Positions 1 through 35,639 of a DNA stretch of 64,000 bases are shown here, piece after piece (position 1 is the first letter of the stretch; every line of letters begins with the position of its first letter). The notes below the pieces were generated by a model that did no database searches, was not told the origin of the DNA, and saw only the letters and a program-made list of their open reading frames with translations. Position numbers and translations under genes: made by a program. Origin of the DNA: an uncultured Chryseobacterium sp. (GTDB lineage: Bacteria; Bacteroidota; Bacteroidia; Flavobacteriales; Weeksellaceae); the NCBI GenBank assembly GCA_913775525.1, contig CAJYLH010000006.1, forward strand, positions 1 through 64,000. Reading direction: 5' to 3'.

Positions 1-268
1 TAATATTAGCTGTTTTGCTGTCTGATGTGGTAACGGCCGCTGTAGCATAAAGGATAGTCCCTTTCTGGTCTGAGCCATATTGTGCATTCCCGGCTTTGAT
101 CTGATCTCCGGTCAGCTTTGGTACAAGGATTCCTTCCGGTTTGCTGCCATCTGTGGTTTTGGCCGTAATGTCAAGTGTAGCCTTAGGATTCTGATTGTTA
201 ATTCCTACCTGAGAGTAGGCATGAAAAGATAGCAATACAATACTTGCAGTGAGTAGATGTGTCTTCAT
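1..268 (-). CDS. Secreted surface protein with VGINxxNP motif, 5' part only
   Basis: Only the N-terminal ~89 residues lie in the window; the gene runs off its left edge. It begins with ATG at 266-268 and a short signal peptide (MKTHLLTASIVLLSFHAYSQ), followed directly by VGINNQNPKATLDI. That VGI(N)xxNPxATLDI opening is common on large secreted proteins of Chryseobacterium-type bacteria that carry C-terminal sorting or structural domains. The function of the missing part cannot be told. A consensus -7 box on the minus strand lies at 321-328, about 50 bp upstream, so the gene is probably transcribed on its own. Confidence 0.8.
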   Translation of the reverse strand, partial: MKTHLLTASIVLLSFHAYSQVGINNQNPKATLDITAKTTDGSKPEGILVPKLTGDQIKAGNAQYGSDQKGTILYATAAVTTSDSKTANI

Positions 269-671
269 ATAACTTTTTTATTTTTTACAGCTTTCAGACT
301 TTTGCTGAAAATTCTCCACGCAAAAGTAAGATTAATTATTGATTAACTATATATCAGGATATTTTAATATATTAAATATCATTAATAAATCATTATGATT
401 TTTAGTTGTACAGGTCATATTAAATTACGTATACAAGCATATTTACTGATAACTCCATGTGAAGAGGTATGAGATAGACAGGATATTGTTCTTATTAATG
501 GTATAATAATTTTTCCACATAATCCAAGATTTTTCCCCTACATCAGTAACATACTATTTTCTCAGTTCCGGACGAATTTTCCGGATAGGGCTCTCAACAC
601 GGCAGTGCACAATAAATTACAGGTTTTCCTTCAGTGTTTTCAGAATCATAGCCCATCACACGATGATCCGT
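269..671. other. Gene-free stretch upstream of the surface protein gene
   Basis: No credible gene here. It holds the -7 box for the leftward gene (321-328) and an AT-rich near-perfect palindrome at 358-380 (GATATTT, AATATATT, AAATATC parts with a one-base bulge). Short open frames on the plus strand toward 663-950 are antisense shadows of the HTH gene at 672-992. Confidence 0.5.
321..328 (-). promoter_or_regulatory. -7 promoter box, TACTTTTG
   Basis: Read on the minus strand this is TACTTTTG, a full match to the Bacteroidota -7 consensus TAnnTTTG. It lies 53 bp upstream of the ATG of the leftward surface protein gene. No clear TTTG -33 box is present at the usual 19-21 bp distance, so it is a half-supported promoter. 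Confidence 0.45.
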
Positions 672-992
672 TTAAAAAAACAGCTTTTTCCATTTCGTCA
701 CCGTATTGCGGCTGAGCTTAAAATGCCTGGCCAGCTGGCTGTTGTTCAGCCGGTTCTTTTTCTGATAATCGAGGATCTCAAAAATAGTTTTCTTATCATA
801 GGATTTAAGTTTCTGGTCAAAACGGGAATCGGCATATTCTTTCTTACTGCAGATAATCTGTTCCAGCCGGATAACATCCATAATGTCAATCGCTTTTTTC
901 TTAAGGATATGGTTGCACAAATGGGCCTTTTCAGGATACTTCATGATTAGCATATCCTTATAGATTCTTTTGTAGTTGGGTAATGTCTTCAT
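672..992 (-). CDS. Small helix-turn-helix protein, transposase-like HTH
   Basis: A 106-residue protein, basic and mostly helical, with a C-terminal helix-turn-helix (residues ~80-104, NNSQLARHFKLSRNTVTKWK). The HTH resembles those of IS OrfA proteins and Hin-like regulators. No catalytic domain follows, so it is more likely a DNA-binding regulator than a transposase. Its ATG (990-992) abuts the stop codon of the next gene upstream (993-995), so the two are co-transcribed and probably translationally coupled. The pair lies divergent to the tyrosine recombinase at 1971. No inverted-repeat ends of an insertion sequence were seen. The function of the first 75 residues is unknown. Confidence 0.7.
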   Translation of the reverse strand: MKTLPNYKRIYKDMLIMKYPEKAHLCNHILKKKAIDIMDVIRLEQIICSKKEYADSRFDQKLKSYDKKTIFEILDYQKKNRLNNSQLARHFKLSRNTVTKWKKLFF

Positions 993-1427
993 TTATCCAT
1001 TATTTTTACTCTGTTTGCTGATCCATTTGTACAGCGTAGTCTTGGGAATTTTATATTGCTCCATGATTTCCGGTTTGGTTTTCGTTCCTGTTGTGACCAA
1101 TTCCAGAATAAAATCAATAATTTCTTTGGTATAAATGTTTTTCCTGAAAACCGGAAGCGGGCTTGATGCATTTTTGACAGGATTTCGCCTTGCAGCTCCG
1201 GGAGGGGCATAGAGAATCAGATGTTGTGTGTAAAGTCTGAAAAAATCATACTCCAGAAGCTTGCTCCAACGAAGGAGAAGGTCTGTATCTAATGACGGCG
1301 CCTTATACATCTCGGAAATCTGATCTTCCGTGCAATGAATAAATTGGCAGATCCGGCATGATTTAATTTCGCTTTCTGCGACTTTCTTTTCAATCAGATT
1401 TCCGATATGAATGTTTTTGAAATTCAT
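993..1427 (-). CDS. Helix-turn-helix protein, first gene of the HTH pair
   Basis: A 144-residue protein. The N-terminal ~65 residues look like an XRE-type helical domain (LIEKKVAES, then CQFIHCTEDQISEMY). They are followed by LLLRWSKLLEYDFFRLYTQH and a linker rich in Pro and Arg. The C-terminus has a transposase-style HTH (KPEIMEQYKIPKTTLYKWI), of the same type as in the downstream gene. I do not know a defined function. No TAnnTTTG box was found on its strand in the 254 bp up to the left inverted repeat at 1682. That makes it the natural target of the invertible promoter at 1682-1920, which is an inference. Confidence 0.7.
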   Translation of the reverse strand: MNFKNIHIGNLIEKKVAESEIKSCRICQFIHCTEDQISEMYKAPSLDTDLLLRWSKLLEYDFFRLYTQHLILYAPPGAARRNPVKNASSPLPVFRKNIYTKEIIDFILELVTTGTKTKPEIMEQYKIPKTTLYKWISKQSKNNG

Positions 1428-1681
1428 TAACTATTTGTATTTATTGACAGAATGTTTCTTTCCACTTTGATTATCTGTGATAAAGCTGTCTATACTAAAG
1501 TCCGATAAATGCTTATCTTGCCCGGTACAGTTTCATTGTTATGCATGATGCAATACCAATAGACAGTATAGATATCATCTTTTCCAATCGAATGTAAAAA
1601 CAAACAGCAGAAAACTATAAACCGCTGTAACGGATCTTTTTCCAAATGGATAAAAATCAGATACTTTTTATAAAATCCTAC

Positions 1682-1702
1682 ATTAGTCTTTTACAGACTA
1701 AT
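1682..1702 (+). repeat. Left inverted recombination site of the promoter switch
   Basis: A 21-bp site made of two 8-bp palindromic arms around an asymmetric 5-bp centre: ATTAGTCT-TTTAC-AGACTAAT. It is the exact reverse complement of the site at 1900-1920. Palindromic arms with an asymmetric spacer are the expected form of a core site for a tyrosine recombinase, with strand exchange across the spacer. Confidence 0.85.
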
Positions 1703-1864
1703 ATAAAATTTACCATTCTATGCCTTAGAATATTATACTATAAACAATTCCCGATACAGTACTAAAAGTCCCAATATGTGCATACTATTAAAATTTATAT
1801 CATCGATTACATAATACAATTAATAATAATAAATATTTACATAATAACATTTTACTAATATACA

Positions 1865-1895
1865 CTTGACCAGCATTATTTAATTATTATCTTTG
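1865..1895 (+). promoter_or_regulatory. Promoter inside the invertible segment, aimed at the recombinase
   Basis: CTTG at 1865-1868, then 19 bp, then TATCTTTG at 1888-1895. The second is a perfect TAnnTTTG and the spacing is canonical for Bacteroidota sigma-A. Transcription would start near 1900-1903, inside the right inverted site, and read into the recombinase at 1971. After inversion the -7 box would lie at about 1707-1714 and face the HTH pair. Confidence 0.75.
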
Positions 1896-1899
1896 TAGC

Positions 1900-1920
1900 A
1901 TTAGTCTGTAAAAGACTAAT
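1900..1920 (-). repeat. Right inverted recombination site of the promoter switch
   Basis: ATTAGTCT-GTAAA-AGACTAAT, the exact reverse complement of the left site at 1682-1702. The two sites face each other and enclose 197 bp, so recombination would invert rather than delete the segment. The right site ends 50 bp before the recombinase ATG. Confidence 0.85.
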
Positions 1921-1970
1921 TATTTGTACTATTTTTGGGCCTGATCAGTAAATTTTTTAATTCTTTAGTT

Positions 1971-3200
1971 ATGATTTTTTTTTATCTTTTATCCCAAAAA
2001 GCAACAAATTTTAACAATTATGTATATCTGATTGCCGATGTTGATAACAAAGTTTCCTACCGGATCAAACTTCCTTTAACCATTGCACCAAAAGACTGGG
2101 ACCCCGAGAAGCAGCGTCCCGGAAATATTTATTCTAAAAAAAATAAAGAGCTCAATACCCTGCTCAACAAACTTAAATTCCGCCTTGCGGAATATATACA
2201 GCACAAGCCCGGAATTTCACGTAAAGAGATCGCTACAGAAATCAAAAAGATCTGTTCTGAAAAAACTACGGCCTATCCTGCGGGCTCGTTTCTCTTCATG
2301 ATGTCTTCCTATATTGAAGCCAAGAAAGAGGGCCTTTGTCTGTCCACCTACAGAAGGTATGTGGTCTTCCTGCGGATGATGGAGAAATTCCAAGGTTTTT
2401 TAGGCCGCAATATGCTTACCGAAGAAGTGGATTCTGCCATGATCAGGGAATTTTACAAATTTGGGAGATTAGAGGAATATACGGAAAGTACCCTGAACAG
2501 AACAGCGGAATTCATCAAAACCATCCTTAATTTCGCTGAGCGGCAAGGCATCATTACTCAGGTCAGGCAGCTTGAGGTCCCGAAGCTTAAAATGGTAAAA
2601 CGAGTACTTGTCCTTGAAGAGGGAGAAATCAGCAAAATCAGCAAAACAACTGTTCCGACAGAGCTAAAGAGGGCTAAAGACTGGCTTCTGATCAGCTGTT
2701 ACACCGGACAGAGGATTTCGGATTTTATGCGTTTTAACTCCGGACAGCTGATCAGAATCGACCATAAGCTATGCATCTCATTCACTCAGCAGAAAACCGG
2801 AAAGGAGATCATTCTTCCCCTGCATCCTGAAGTATTAAAGATCATGAAGAAATACGGCGGAGCATTTCCCCAGGCCATAGATACGGCGGTATATAATGCC
2901 CAGATTAAAAAAGTAGCAGCTCTTGCAGGGATCAATTCACCTGTGAAAATGCGGAAACGGACCGGCTTCAGAGGAAAGGAAACCTGCGCAGAAAAATGGG
3001 AGAATATCAGCAGCCACATCGGCAGAAGGAGCTTTGCATCCAATTTCTACGGAAAGATCCCCACTCCCCTGCTGATGCAGGCCACAGGCCACAGCACGGA
3101 GCAAATGTTTTTGAACTATATTAATCCCGTACATCATTCCAGGATCGTTTCACTGGGGGATTATTTTGACCGTATTTACAACGAGGGAGCCAGATCATAG
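1971..3200 (+). CDS. Tyrosine site-specific recombinase (phage integrase family)
   Basis: The protein has 409 residues from ATG 1971; an in-frame TTG at 1935 would add 12 residues. I prefer 1971 because the N-terminal arm-binding domain typical of Bacteroidota integrases starts there (FFYLLSQK, then LPLTIAPKDWDPEKQR). A core-binding helical domain follows (~100-200), then the catalytic domain. The catalytic residues visible are Arg in TGQRISD, His and Arg in SHIGRRSF, His in TGHSTEQMF and the nucleophile Tyr in LNYINP. It acts on DNA by strand exchange through a covalent phosphotyrosine. No phage or conjugative genes lie near, but two exact inverted sites lie just upstream. A local inversion role (inverton type) therefore fits better than element integration. 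Its own promoter lies within the invertible DNA, so it may regulate itself. Confidence 0.9.
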   Translation: MIFFYLLSQKATNFNNYVYLIADVDNKVSYRIKLPLTIAPKDWDPEKQRPGNIYSKKNKELNTLLNKLKFRLAEYIQHKPGISRKEIATEIKKICSEKTTAYPAGSFLFMMSSYIEAKKEGLCLSTYRRYVVFLRMMEKFQGFLGRNMLTEEVDSAMIREFYKFGRLEEYTESTLNRTAEFIKTILNFAERQGIITQVRQLEVPKLKMVKRVLVLEEGEISKISKTTVPTELKRAKDWLLISCYTGQRISDFMRFNSGQLIRIDHKLCISFTQQKTGKEIILPLHPEVLKIMKKYGGAFPQAIDTAVYNAQIKKVAALAGINSPVKMRKRTGFRGKETCAEKWENISSHIGRRSFASNFYGKIPTPLLMQATGHSTEQMFLNYINPVHHSRIVSLGDYFDRIYNEGARS

Positions 3201-3955
3201 GTTTAGATTACACAGATGTCTCTTCACGCAGTTAAAAATCGTATTTTTTTTAACCTTATATGAGTTTTGATTTCTCGCAGATCAGTTGATCATGCAAGTT
3301 TTTTCACGCATTTAAAAATCGTAGATTTTTAAAACTCATATGTTGACTGTTTTCAAAGCTGTTGTGACTGTTGTTGTCTTTACCTTTCGTAGATCACCAA
3401 ATAACACAGATTTTTTCACGTATTTAAAAATCTAAGATTTTTTAAAACTGATGTGTTCTGACTATTTTCAAAGCAGTCTTCTTAATATTCTCATGTGTCA
3501 AAAATTATGCAGCCTGTTATAATCCCGGATCATCAAAACAACCCCGTCAAAAATTTTTTGAATTTTCGCCCTCCGAGGGAGGGGAATTTTCCCAGATGCT
3601 ATTTCCCAAAAACCGCAAAGATTTTACATACGCAAAAAATCGTAGATTTTTAAGCTTATGTGATCTTAATGTTTCCAAAGCTGTACGCTTCATAATTCTT
3701 AAGTGTCAAAACTCTTTTGTGACTGTTGTGGTTTAAAATCATCTCGCAGATTAAGCAGATTTTTTCACGTACTTAAAAATCATAGATTTTTAAAAACTCA
3801 TGTGATCTTATGTTTTCGAAGCTGGCTTCTTAAGATTCTTATGTGTCAAAAAATCATTGTCACCTTTGCGGCCTGAAACCTAATTCAAACCCTGCAATTC
3901 TCAAACAAAAAAATCCCGCTTTTCAGCAGGATTTCAAACAATATTGATGTTGTAT
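3201..3955. repeat. Gene-free block of composite dispersed repeats
   Basis: No gene. At least four degenerate copies of a module sit in tandem (around 3325, 3436, 3640 and 3783). The module starts with a small hairpin (AAAATCgtaGATTTT), then GTTTTCAAAGCTGGCTTCTT, then TTCTTAAGTGTCAAAA, then TTTTGTGACTGTTGTGGTTT. A second, palindromic module (AATTTTCGCC, CTCCGAGGGAG, GGGAATTTT) lies at 3560-3590. The same modules recur at 13.9, 14.5, 50.0 and 52.2 kb, always in this orientation. Confidence 0.75.
3907..3934 (-). terminator. Intrinsic terminator of the DUF4142 gene
   Basis: On the minus strand the stem AATCCTGC / GCGGGATT has a six-base loop and is followed by seven T. It lies 22 bp past the stop of the gene at 3956. 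Confidence 0.8.
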
Positions 3956-4579
3956 TTATTTTACAGCATTCTTCGCTTTCTCAGATTCCATCAGGTGATG
4001 TTCCAGAGTCGGAAGTGTTTTGCTTGCGAAAGATTTCAGCGATGCATCAGAACCGTCGGAAGCTTCTTTCTTGAAGTTGGCAATGGTTGTCTGATGATCA
4101 GTAACCATCATATCCGCATACGTACGGTCAAATTCCGCACCTTTTTTCATTTTCAATGCGTCATATTTTTTCTGCATATCGGCATCTAAAGATGTAGGTA
4201 GAGAATACCCTGCTTTGGAAGCCCATGCTTTCAGCTCATCATTAGCTTTGGTATGGTCTGTGACCATCATCTGTGCCAGTGATTTTACGGTAGCATTGGT
4301 AGCATTGGTGGATGCCAACTGTCCTGCCATCACTTCCATCATTCCGCCCATGGCTGCAGCATCAGCAAATTTCTTATCCTGGTCGTTCAGGTTGCTTTTA
4401 GCATTGGCATCCATATTGCCGGACATTGCAGTTGAATCTGCACCTGTATTCATCATTCCGGAATCAGCAGGCGTCGACATTGCCGTACTGTCTGCGGACG
4501 TGTCCGTTGCCGTAGTTTCATTTTTTTTACATGCTACCATAGCTCCAACAGCTAAAATAGCTAAAATTGAGTTTTTCAT
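3956..4579 (-). CDS. DUF4142 ferritin-like lipoprotein
   Basis: A 207-residue exported lipoprotein. I start at ATG 4577-4579 (MKNSILAILAVGAMVAC), because an ATG four codons upstream only adds MIYN. A lipobox-like MVAC and KKNE place the mature protein on a membrane facing the periplasm. A Ser/Thr/Ala/Asp-rich linker (~22-65) precedes a helical domain (~70-205) with the DUF4142 pattern. That domain has FADAAAMGGMMEVMAGQLA, two MMVTDH motifs and the C-terminal LPTLEHHLMESE. DUF4142 proteins form four-helix ferritin-like bundles, but their function is unsettled. The gene stands alone with a terminator at 3907-3934. Confidence 0.85.
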   Translation of the reverse strand: MKNSILAILAVGAMVACKKNETTATDTSADSTAMSTPADSGMMNTGADSTAMSGNMDANAKSNLNDQDKKFADAAAMGGMMEVMAGQLASTNATNATVKSLAQMMVTDHTKANDELKAWASKAGYSLPTSLDADMQKKYDALKMKKGAEFDRTYADMMVTDHQTTIANFKKEASDGSDASLKSFASKTLPTLEHHLMESEKAKNAVK

Positions 4580-4816
4580 ATTGTATATCATTTAAGAGGT
4601 TGTAAAATGGTGGGCAATATGCGATTGCTTCATCTATGGTAACAATTTATTTGCCAAAGTGTTAATAATTCACTTTTATAGATTTAATTCTTTAAATTTT
4701 ACAATACTGAGCAGATTCTGATAACATATTTTTTTCAGATGTTCTGTCATTAAGAATACAATTTATTTATGGCCGGCATTGCAGTAAGACGATTGAAATG
4801 AATGCATATTAATGAT

Positions 4817-4843
4817 AAAAAAATTATCCCGGATAGGATAATT
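4817..4843 (-). terminator. Intrinsic terminator of the repeat lipoprotein gene
   Basis: Minus-strand stem AATTATCC / GGATAATT with a six-base loop and a T run. It lies about 50 bp past the stop of the gene at 4892. The rest of 4592-4891 shows no other clear signal. Confidence 0.7.
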
Positions 4844-4891
4844 TTTAAAGTTTTTCTAATATAGCGGAAGTAAAAGGCTTTTGATTTATTG

Positions 4892-5944
4892 TTACTTCTC
4901 CTTAACGATAATTTTTCTGATCAGGGCATTTCCTGTACCTGTGGTGAGCGTCTGCGGTTTCCCGTTCACCCAATAAAGGGCAGCAGATCCTCCGCCAGGG
5001 TTGTCCTGATAGCCTGCAGCATATACATCGGTACCGAAAACATCAATACCCAATGCGTAAGAAACACCTGAGCCCACAACTACCGGCGAACCGTTCTTCC
5101 AATATTTGGCAACCGATGAATTCCCGTTGGACGACATTCCGGATCCTGAAATATAAACTTCATTATTTTTCACCGTTATGGCATTTCCGCTGACACTGGA
5201 AGATCCGTCCTGAATCAGTGTGGGTGCAGACAAGTTTTTAGAATACCGCGTCTGTGACTGTCCTGAATTATTGTAGATTACAGACCACATCATATAGACA
5301 TCATTACCCGAAACGGCAATATCCTGATGGTCTGCCGTAGTGTTCTGGTCAGAAATATCGGTACGTTGCCCATTTTTCCAGTAACAGGTGACCGGTGTAA
5401 GCCAGCTGGTCATCCTTCGTTCTCCGATGACATAGACATCATTCCCAACCACAGCAATTGCTTCTGCTACGGCACTCTGGGTATTATCCGTCAGCGCAAC
5501 CGGAGTACCGTTTTTCCAGTATTTGGCGATATAGGTAGTACCGCCGGGAACCATTTCCTGGCCGGCAATATAAACATCATTTCCAACCACAGCAATACCG
5601 TTGGCGAATGCATCCTGAGAACCGTCCGTTAAATCTGTAGCCACTCCGTTCTTCCAGAATTTTGCCACATACTTCCCATTGCCCTTCACTTCATAACCGG
5701 CGACATAAACGTCATCACCCACTACGACCATTCCCGTAGCATCGGAAGATCCTGATCCGGTTCCCAGGAGGACTGCGGTTCCGTTTTTCCAGTATTTGGC
5801 TTTATAATCTTCGCGGCCGGCAGCGTATACAGTAGGTCCGTTCTGTGCAGCATCCGGCTGATCGTCGTTGCTGCTGCAGCTGATGGTAGAAATACCCGTT
5901 AACAATGCCAGAGGCAAAACATAGAAAAGAGATTTTATATTCAT
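4892..5944 (-). CDS. Secreted lipoprotein with seven propeller-like repeats
   Basis: A 350-residue lipoprotein. The signal peptide ends in ISTISC followed by SSNDD, a typical Bacteroidota lipobox region. The rest is about seven repeats of ~45 residues. Each carries a variant of AVVGNDVYVAG followed by KYWKNG with a loop of variable length, for example GMVVVGDDVYVAGYE and AIAVVGNDVYVIGER. Repeat number and length suggest a seven-bladed beta-propeller. No catalytic motif is visible. It is probably an outer-membrane-associated binding or structural protein, but the ligand cannot be inferred. It is transcribed alone, with a terminator at 4817-4843. Confidence 0.75.
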   Translation of the reverse strand: MNIKSLFYVLPLALLTGISTISCSSNDDQPDAAQNGPTVYAAGREDYKAKYWKNGTAVLLGTGSGSSDATGMVVVGDDVYVAGYEVKGNGKYVAKFWKNGVATDLTDGSQDAFANGIAVVGNDVYIAGQEMVPGGTTYIAKYWKNGTPVALTDNTQSAVAEAIAVVGNDVYVIGERRMTSWLTPVTCYWKNGQRTDISDQNTTADHQDIAVSGNDVYMMWSVIYNNSGQSQTRYSKNLSAPTLIQDGSSSVSGNAITVKNNEVYISGSGMSSNGNSSVAKYWKNGSPVVVGSGVSYALGIDVFGTDVYAAGYQDNPGGGSAALYWVNGKPQTLTTGTGNALIRKIIVKEK

Positions 5945-6116
5945 CGTTGATTATTTATGATCTCTTACTCAAAAACTGAGCCGAATATCCGAAGAACAAG
6001 ATGAATAATTGTTAAGATGAAACAATTTTAGATTGATTTCCATAGTCTGCAATTCAGTCTTTTTTTAAGGATATGAGAAATATTTCGCTTCTTTATTTCC
6101 CGTAACCTTCCGGCCC

Positions 6117-34710: not shown

Positions 34711-35639
34711 TTTAACGCAAAGCTTTATTCTCCAAATGCATATTTCAAGAGAGCAAAGAAGAGAATCAATACATTGATTCTTATGAAGCATGCTTCTTAA
34801 GCGGCTTTGCCGCCATAGCTTTGTCTTCTTAAATAAGACAGTATGATCCATGGTCTTTGCGTTAGAAATTTAGCCTTTCGCCTTTTTACAATCCACTTTT
34901 TAGCAAAAACACTTTAACGCAAAGATTTATTCTCCAAATGCATATTTCAAGGGAGCAAAGAAGGGAATCAATATCTTGATTCTATGAAGCATGGTTCTTA
35001 AGTAGCTTGGACGCCATAGCTTTGCCTTCTTAAATAAGACAGTATGATCCATGGTCTTTGCGTTAGAAATTTAGCCTTTCTCCTTTTTACAATCCACTTT
35101 TTAGCAAAAACACTTTAACGCAAAGTTTTATTCTTCAAATTCATATTTCAAGAGAGCAAAGAAGGGAATCAATACCTTGATTCTTAAGAAGCATGCTTCT
35201 TAAGCGGCTTCGCCGCCATAGCTTGGCCTTCTTAAATAAGACAGTATGATCCAAGATCTTTGCGTTATAGAATCAACCTTTCTCGCTTTTTATAACACAT
35301 TTTAACGCAAAGTTTATATTCTTCAAATGCATATTTCAAGAGAGCAAAGAAGAGAATCAATAATTGATTCTATGAAGCATGCTTCTTAAGCGGCTTCGCC
35401 GCAACAGCTTTGCCTTCTTAAATAAGACAGTATGATCCATGATCTTTGCGTTAGAAATTAGCCTTTCGCCCTTTTTACAACACATTTTAACGCAAAGCTT
35501 TATTCTTCAAATCCATATTTCAAGGGAGCAAAGAGAGGAATCAATACCTTGATTCTTATGAAGCATGCTTCTTAAGCGGCTTTGCCGCCATAGCTTTGCC
35601 TTCTTAAATAAAGCAGGATCATTCAAAATCTTTGCGTCA
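34711..35639. repeat. Five-copy tandem array of ~190-bp hairpin-rich units
   Basis: Units begin with TTTAACGCAAAG at 34711, 34913, 35114, 35301 and 35486 (periods 202, 201, 187 and 185 bp). Each ends ~154 bp later with CTTTGCGTTA (34855, 35056, 35258, 35444; CTTTGCGTCA at 35630). The ends are therefore 9-bp inverted repeats. Within each unit are hairpins: AGAATCAAT/ATTGATTCT, the palindrome GAAGCATGCTTC, GCGGCtttGCCGC and GTCTTcttaaatAAGAC. A degenerate end of a sixth unit (TTTGCGTT at 34702-34709) precedes the first. No open reading frame runs through the array. Confidence 0.85.

Follow-up and report, generated by a model that had tools for sequence, protein, structure and literature searches.

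The stretch of DNA analysed here (the window: positions 1 to 64,000 of contig CAJYLH010000006.1, from an uncultured Chryseobacterium sp.) very likely contains a switch for phase variation, in which a neighbouring segment of 197 bp would be flipped by the tyrosine recombinase encoded at 1971-3200. The promoter inside this segment would serve the recombinase itself or, once flipped, a divergent pair of HTH genes. In our judgement this is a known kind of phase-variation switch; what is new is that the recombinase would be one of its own two outputs. Our reading concerns the following features.

1-268, minus strand: beginning of a gene for a secreted protein (QVGIN...KATLDITAKTTDG type), truncated at the contig end; a doubtful member of the opposite output
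672-992, minus strand: HTH protein 2, 106 aa, putative second gene of the opposite output; Pfam HTH match below cut-off
993-1427, minus strand: HTH protein 1, 144 aa, putative first gene of the opposite output; the C-terminus resembles an HTH but stays below Pfam cut-offs
1682-1702, plus strand: left recombination site, ATTAGTCTTTTACAGACTAAT; exact inverted copy of the right site, with an identical centre
1703-1899, no strand: putative invertible segment, 197 bp; its interior aligns with those of the two nearest relatives
1866-1895, plus strand: Bacteroidota-type promoter directed towards the recombinase; TTG at 1866-1868, 19 nt, TATCTTTG at 1888-1895
1900-1920, minus strand: right recombination site, inverted copy of the left site; at the expected transcript start
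1930-1937, plus strand: second -7-like box, TATTTTTG, fixed outside the inverton; candidate weak constant promoter of the recombinase
1971-3200, plus strand: tyrosine recombinase, 409 aa; Arm-DNA-bind_5, Phage_int_SAM_5 and Phage_integrase above Pfam cut-off

An earlier note, made from the letters of this DNA, had described two exact inverted 21-bp sites with 197 nt between them, each with 8-nt arms and an asymmetric 5-nt centre. Both the pair and its anatomy are as described. Positions 1684-1700 of the left site form the core TAGTC-N7-GACTA that characterizes the family discussed below. Among inverted pairs whose arms are 60 nt or more apart and whose starts lie no more than 500 nt from each other, this one is the longest exact pair that we found in the 64-kb window. 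It also exceeds chance, because in 1000 dinucleotide shuffles of 1428-1970 the longest inverted pair reached 18 nt at most, compared to 21 nt in the real sequence. In the 4.1-Mb assembly the site pattern, with up to two mismatches allowed, occurs in two places only, both of them exact copies; a third site was sought at this setting and not found. The setting is loose enough to reveal further sites, because a backwards control pattern gave four chance matches per strand in the same assembly. The window holds a promoter enclosed by inverted repeats, which is the layout of an inverton.

The recombinase gene begins, as had been claimed, 50 nt past the right site, with an ATG at 1971, and its frame is intact, without a stop over 409 aa. 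The Phage_integrase domain (PF00589) scores 36.7 bits, the cut-off being 27.1. R248, K275, H349, R352, H374 and Y383 are invariant across 16 aligned sequences; we take them to fill the catalytic roles of the R-K-HxxR-H-Y set, which together with the integrase domain makes the protein a tyrosine recombinase. NCBIfam matches up to an E of 0.1 comprise XerC, XerD, XerA-type and general tyrosine recombinase models, none of which reaches its cut-off, plus a single weak match that is unrelated. DNA-invertase models (the cluster 3b families of PMC11892184) are not among these matches, and the library may hold none. Among solved structures the recombinase profile has no sequence match at E 0.001, and 13 plasmid records gave distant matches only, all below 60% identity and none spanning 80% of the protein. 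The DNA downstream of the gene contains direct repeats of the TTTTTTCACGCATTTAAAAATCGTAGATTTTTAAAA type at 3218-3878, degenerate and 32-71 nt long, and several matches to them occur in the nearest relative as well; farther along, at 34785-35576, several 17-nt GAAGCATGCTTCTTAAG copies occur in direct and inverted orientation.

The main support for site-specific inversion comes from related loci. A protein search of 173 genomes of the window's genus gave some match in 142. Besides the window, 53 places were listed at an identity of at least 45%, of which we took 50 (L040-L089) and omitted three short or broken pieces; one of the three (L137), read later, has a pair with identical centres too. 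The window and the 50 same-genus relatives make up a first set of 51 loci, to which four more distant relatives, out of many listed, were added for comparison. As sites we called the best TAGTC-N7-GACTA in fixed ranges on the left and right, with up to three mismatches in the ten arm letters and the centre ignored. A readable pair, about 200 bp apart, is present in 47 of the 51 loci; three loci are cut too near the gene, and in L047 the left site is missing. The asymmetric 7-nt centre is the same in both partners in 46 of these 47 pairs (the sole exception, L073, has one centre mismatch), and there are 29 different centres among the loci. Pairing the centres at random yields 2.5 identical pairs on average and 8 at most, compared to the 46 observed. 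That matched centres change together is most simply explained by strand exchange between the two sites. Centres that differ between loci and are shared by partners are, on sequence grounds, the mark of site-specific inversion.

The layout is found well beyond this first set. Scanning named genomes with a recombinase profile provided a second, named set of 80 loci (the best 80 of 248), which overlaps the first in Chryseobacterium. An exact inverted pair of at least 13 nt, 100-320 nt apart, exists in 64 of the 72 named loci with enough upstream DNA; the controls had such a pair in 2 of 360 single-letter shuffles, in none of 71 downstream windows and in none of 69 far-upstream windows. Among the eight loci with no exact pair, L148 (the same locus as L057) has an imperfect one, L222 is a relative of 38% identity and L208 has no site. 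The other five, L151, L179 (which is L047), L188, L214 and L215, have a single readable site ahead of the recombinase and are possibly switches that have lost their left half. For named loci without Chryseobacterium in the title the count is 33 of 39, and the pair-bearing genera include Empedobacter, Elizabethkingia, Mesonia, Myroides, Sphingobacterium, Pedobacter, Mucilaginibacter, Siphonobacter and Dyadobacter; no pair was found in the three Epilithonimonas loci of the named set. Neither was a site pair found in the 11 more distant relatives examined (the four added to the first set, L222 and six viral ones). The pattern of the pair alone occurs in 36 of 320 genomes of the family, from 7 of 33 genera, and its reversed control in none. 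Since the layout recurs in dozens of related genomes, we regard it as a real switch family and not as a chance repeat. The earlier suggestion that it is undescribed in a Chryseobacterium-like host needs to be divided: the layout spans several Bacteroidota families and is not host-specific, and among the open-access papers listed we found none that describes it.

How closely the recombinase is linked to the sites can be judged from a quick tree of 75 recombinases (48 from the first set including the distant rows, and 27 named). The five rows labelled site-less group together against the other 70 with a support of 100. This basal split is no surprise because the five were picked as distant; it joins long branches, as the program warned, and 3 of the 70 recombinases on the site-bearing side have no readable pair. 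The letter that comes after the left arm ("none" counting as a state) follows the recombinase tree, with 7 changes compared to a shuffled mean of 24.7, a difference that is partly helped by near copies. The link thus consists of the association itself and of this site letter following the tree. Probably, the switch can be flipped by the adjoining recombinase, and in the window it would be this enzyme that acts on these sites.

Some genomes carry more than one pair. L068 has a second pair with another centre, between -2380 and about -2168 relative to the recombinase; it precedes a second secreted-protein gene and is perhaps served by the same recombinase; a promoter box was sought in both pairs of L068 and found in neither. 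By inspection only, most multi-copy genomes have different centres, and one genome (G154) has the same centre twice. C. taichungense has 12 pairs, one at the recombinase locus L079 and 11 others (L126-L136). Partner centres are identical in all 11 further pairs, and there are 9 kinds of centre among the 12. In view of such repeats within a genome, we make no claim that centres differ in order to prevent cross-talk between pairs. No recombinase homologue (E 1e-4) was found in the fetched flanks of the 11, about 1-5 kb per side. Ten of them are accompanied by a secreted-type ORF of 182-199 aa that starts about 20 nt or less from the site core, and in 12 of 12 invertons the promoter points away from the cassette. 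The cassettes often end with a protein whose copy at L128 is HU-like by Pfam, and one cargo protein of the VGIN kind matches DUF5907 above and C1q below the cut-off. This suggests a set of surface cassettes that are off by default. That a single close family member acts on all of these pairs is our guess.

The second part of our reading concerns the promoter. A promoter aimed at the recombinase had been claimed to lie within the segment, and it is there at 1866-1895, with TTG, 19 nt and TATCTTTG; TTG is an element of the Bacteroidota promoter consensus. For 45 loci with a box of the form TAnnTTTG, the promoter consensus given in PMC4747536, a TTG stands 17-22 nt ahead in 35, mostly at 19. In the window the box ends 4 nt ahead of the right site, which is why the transcript is predicted to start at the edge of that site. 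Site 1900-1920 folds as a hairpin, with which the predicted recombinase transcript would begin, and in many relatives the right-site hairpin is followed by a run of T. RNA folding found the whole leader of this transcript no more stable than shuffles. A general scan for another promoter type, not used here, gave 22 promoter-like sites versus 13.7 in shuffles, and 8 terminator-like sites versus 2.7.

Promoter direction is strongly one-sided across the family. Within the first set, 44 of 47 loci have the box inside the right site and directed towards the recombinase; in 1 it points away, and in 2 it was not found. For the 64 pairs of the named set, which overlaps the first, the numbers are 53 towards, 2 away and 9 with no direction called. 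The exception in the first set is a C. luteum locus (L076, which is L167), where the promoter is at the left site and points away from the recombinase. Its interior aligns in reverse to that of L082 (z 8.3 versus 0.8) and of L070 (z 7.7 versus 0.4), two loci whose recombinases group with that of L076 in the tree. Judging by promoter and alignment, L076 is the same segment in the flipped state. A locus of Mesonia hippocampi (L153), with the promoter at the left, looks flipped by promoter position only. The window presents one state in its assembly, and because its interior aligns in the same direction as those of its two nearest relatives (z 22.8 and 22.7), all three are in the same state. Inversion at the window locus itself would be expected by analogy with its relatives. 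The earlier note had suggested a comparison of strains; among the relatives compared here, L076 (by promoter and alignment) and L153 (by promoter only) have the opposite orientation. Together, the 47 related pairs with co-changing centres and the flipped relative L076 strongly support its idea of an invertible promoter. A promoter that would serve the recombinase one way and the divergent genes the other way fits position and direction in nearly all loci.

What the promoter would transcribe in the flipped state differs between loci. The HTH genes are divergent from the recombinase, as claimed, both being on the minus strand (993-1427 and 672-992), with Pfam HTH matches below the cut-offs. A homologue of HTH protein 1 lies divergent upstream in 24 of 50 related loci, and it is the nearest divergent ORF of at least 100 aa in 5 of 47 loci only (the window, L040, L041, L060 and L082); in the window and its two nearest relatives it is 255-257 nt from the site core. 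We surveyed outputs at 74 loci, the 47 of the first set and 27 chosen named ones. The nearest left ORF of at least 100 aa is divergent in 71 of them, and 38 of these 71 have a crude signal peptide. Many of the nearest ORFs in Chryseobacterium are of secreted type and start with ...SQVGIN..PKATLDVTAKTTDG, often followed by the HTH pair. The opposite output in relatives is often a secreted-protein operon or regulators: a response regulator receiver protein and an AraC-type regulator are the products of the two genes nearest to the switch at L175, a Sphingobacterium locus, and the opposite-side gene in Mesonia encodes a CI-repressor-like protein. In the window the HTH pair stands as the candidate opposite output; in many relatives a secreted-protein gene comes between the switch and the pair. 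The VGIN-type proteins of L042 and L058 and the window fragment have no Pfam match.

Five further copies of HTH gene 1 in the genome, one of them broken by stops, have no exact inverted pair upstream; two of the upstream stretches contain imperfect repeats only (74-81%). We set aside the gene at 1-268 as an output member. The contig begins within this gene, and positions 1-433 of the window, which include the DNA upstream of the gene, have a 90% identical copy at another contig end (C42:1-435), so the assembly breaks at a repeat. In the stretches fetched from the two nearest relatives, no match to window 1-675 was found. Being copied at another contig end and absent from these stretches, the gene is probably a separate unit.

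One could also argue that this is an ordinary inverton, in which the switch controls the divergent genes, the recombinase is transcribed mainly from its own fixed promoter and the outward promoter is merely parked. We consider this explanation rather unlikely, although two observations speak for it. First, a -7-like box does stand between the right site and the recombinase: in 43 of 47 loci a TAnnTTnG box is found 9-12 nt beyond the core of the right site, and in 0 of 47 outside the left site; shuffles gave a mean of 6.8 and a maximum of 13 loci compared to the real 43. Second, in C. taichungense the promoter points away from the cargo in 11 of 11 invertons whose fetched flanks contain no recombinase homologue. 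In view of these, an away-pointing promoter is by itself no proof of serving the recombinase. Two observations pull in the other direction. The recombinase starts 28-66 nt beyond the right site core, in line with the promoter, in 47 of 47 loci. And the invertible box has a TTG 17-22 nt ahead in the 35 of 45 loci given above, but the fixed box in 4 of 43 only; since a properly spaced TTG is this rare, the fixed box may be no promoter.

It seems very improbable that the sites are unrecombined operators, bound by the recombinase or by the HTH proteins. The sites are near-palindromic and overlap the expected transcript start, and HTH genes adjoin; yet operators need no identical asymmetric centre in inverted copies, which 46 of 47 pairs have, and the flipped L076 exists. 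Least credible of all is a mobile-element integrase with its attachment sites: the arm-binding, SAM-like and catalytic domains are as in phage integrases and distant relatives occur on viral contigs, but 10 of 11 viral relatives are 33-39% identical (the other is one short 51% piece), of the 8 viral relatives examined 2 are cut short and 6 lack a pair, the site occurs only twice in the genome, and collinearity of the window with its nearest relative (676-3359 and 3886-5998, 83-92%) extends to both sides of the sites and recombinase, with no sign of insertion between.

The self-directed switch that we prefer could work as follows. In the assembled state the enclosed promoter would transcribe the recombinase, which would recombine the two inverted sites and flip the 197 bp between them. 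In the flipped state the promoter would transcribe the divergent HTH pair or, in many relatives, the secreted-protein operon. Because the expected transcript start is at the edge of the right site, a recombinase bound there would be placed for autorepression and may repress its own promoter. The conserved fixed -7-like box beyond the site could supply basal recombinase in either state and so permit a return from the flipped state. If a flip fully silenced the recombinase, there would be no way back from the flipped state, which should then accumulate; nearly all assemblies show the opposite. Hence, the one-sided orientation needs a further cause, which may be a fixed promoter, very rare flipping, selection or a bias in direction. 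Such a bias would also explain the skew, as would selection in culture against expression of the cargo.

Tentatively, and with less than even confidence, we propose that the family works as a self-extinguishing memory switch, the recombinase being one of the two alternative outputs of its own inverton. The default state, with the recombinase on, would flip rarely. The cargo-on state would hold itself, the flip having removed the main recombinase promoter, and the fixed box would determine how fast the switch returns. Some species would use a single enzyme of this kind for a dozen dispersed, default-off secreted-protein cassettes, each with matched centres.

Parts of this design have precedents. 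In the fim switch of E. coli the tyrosine recombinases FimB and FimE flip a short promoter segment, as we propose here; the promoters of their genes lie outside the switch, unlike the arrangement that we propose for the window. Invertons with tyrosine recombinases in Bacteroides, which the earlier note mentioned, are described in PMC4747536. There, the BF2766 system of B. fragilis likewise has a tyrosine recombinase beside an invertible TAnnTTTG promoter, a surface output and an off state that dominates in culture; its gene is head-to-head with mpi, the promoter beside it is described as belonging to the polysaccharide operon, with no statement in the passages used that it drives the recombinase, and BF2766 additionally inverts a distant promoter. 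The B. fragilis promoter IVp-I was on in about 1% of an inoculum (PMC4747536). The 12 invertons of C. taichungense resemble the Mpi system of B. fragilis, in which one recombinase serves many dispersed invertible promoters (PMC4747536; PMC5903667). Mpi, however, is a serine recombinase, unlike the tyrosine recombinase here, and the window genome, with a single pair, lacks the dispersed targets of a global invertase of this kind. Gut invertons (PMC11892184) share a promoter segment between inverted repeats near an invertase and surface genes. According to that survey, their invertases are generally not so placed that the inverted promoter could drive them (group 145 is a possible exception), whereas here they are in line in 47 of 47 loci. 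Read mapping has revealed many inversions, including one in a Flavobacteriia sample (PMC5903667). In the open-access literature, the titles and abstract starts among the matches listed contain nothing on this layout or on inversion in Chryseobacterium; as a sign of absence this is weak.

A conserved family in which the recombinase lies in line with its own invertible promoter would be a natural DNA memory with feedback. The site rule is simple, pairs of TAGTC-N7-GACTA spaced by about 200 bp, and allows further members to be sought in other genomes. For Chryseobacterium and its relatives, the switch family is a clear candidate mechanism of surface phase variation.
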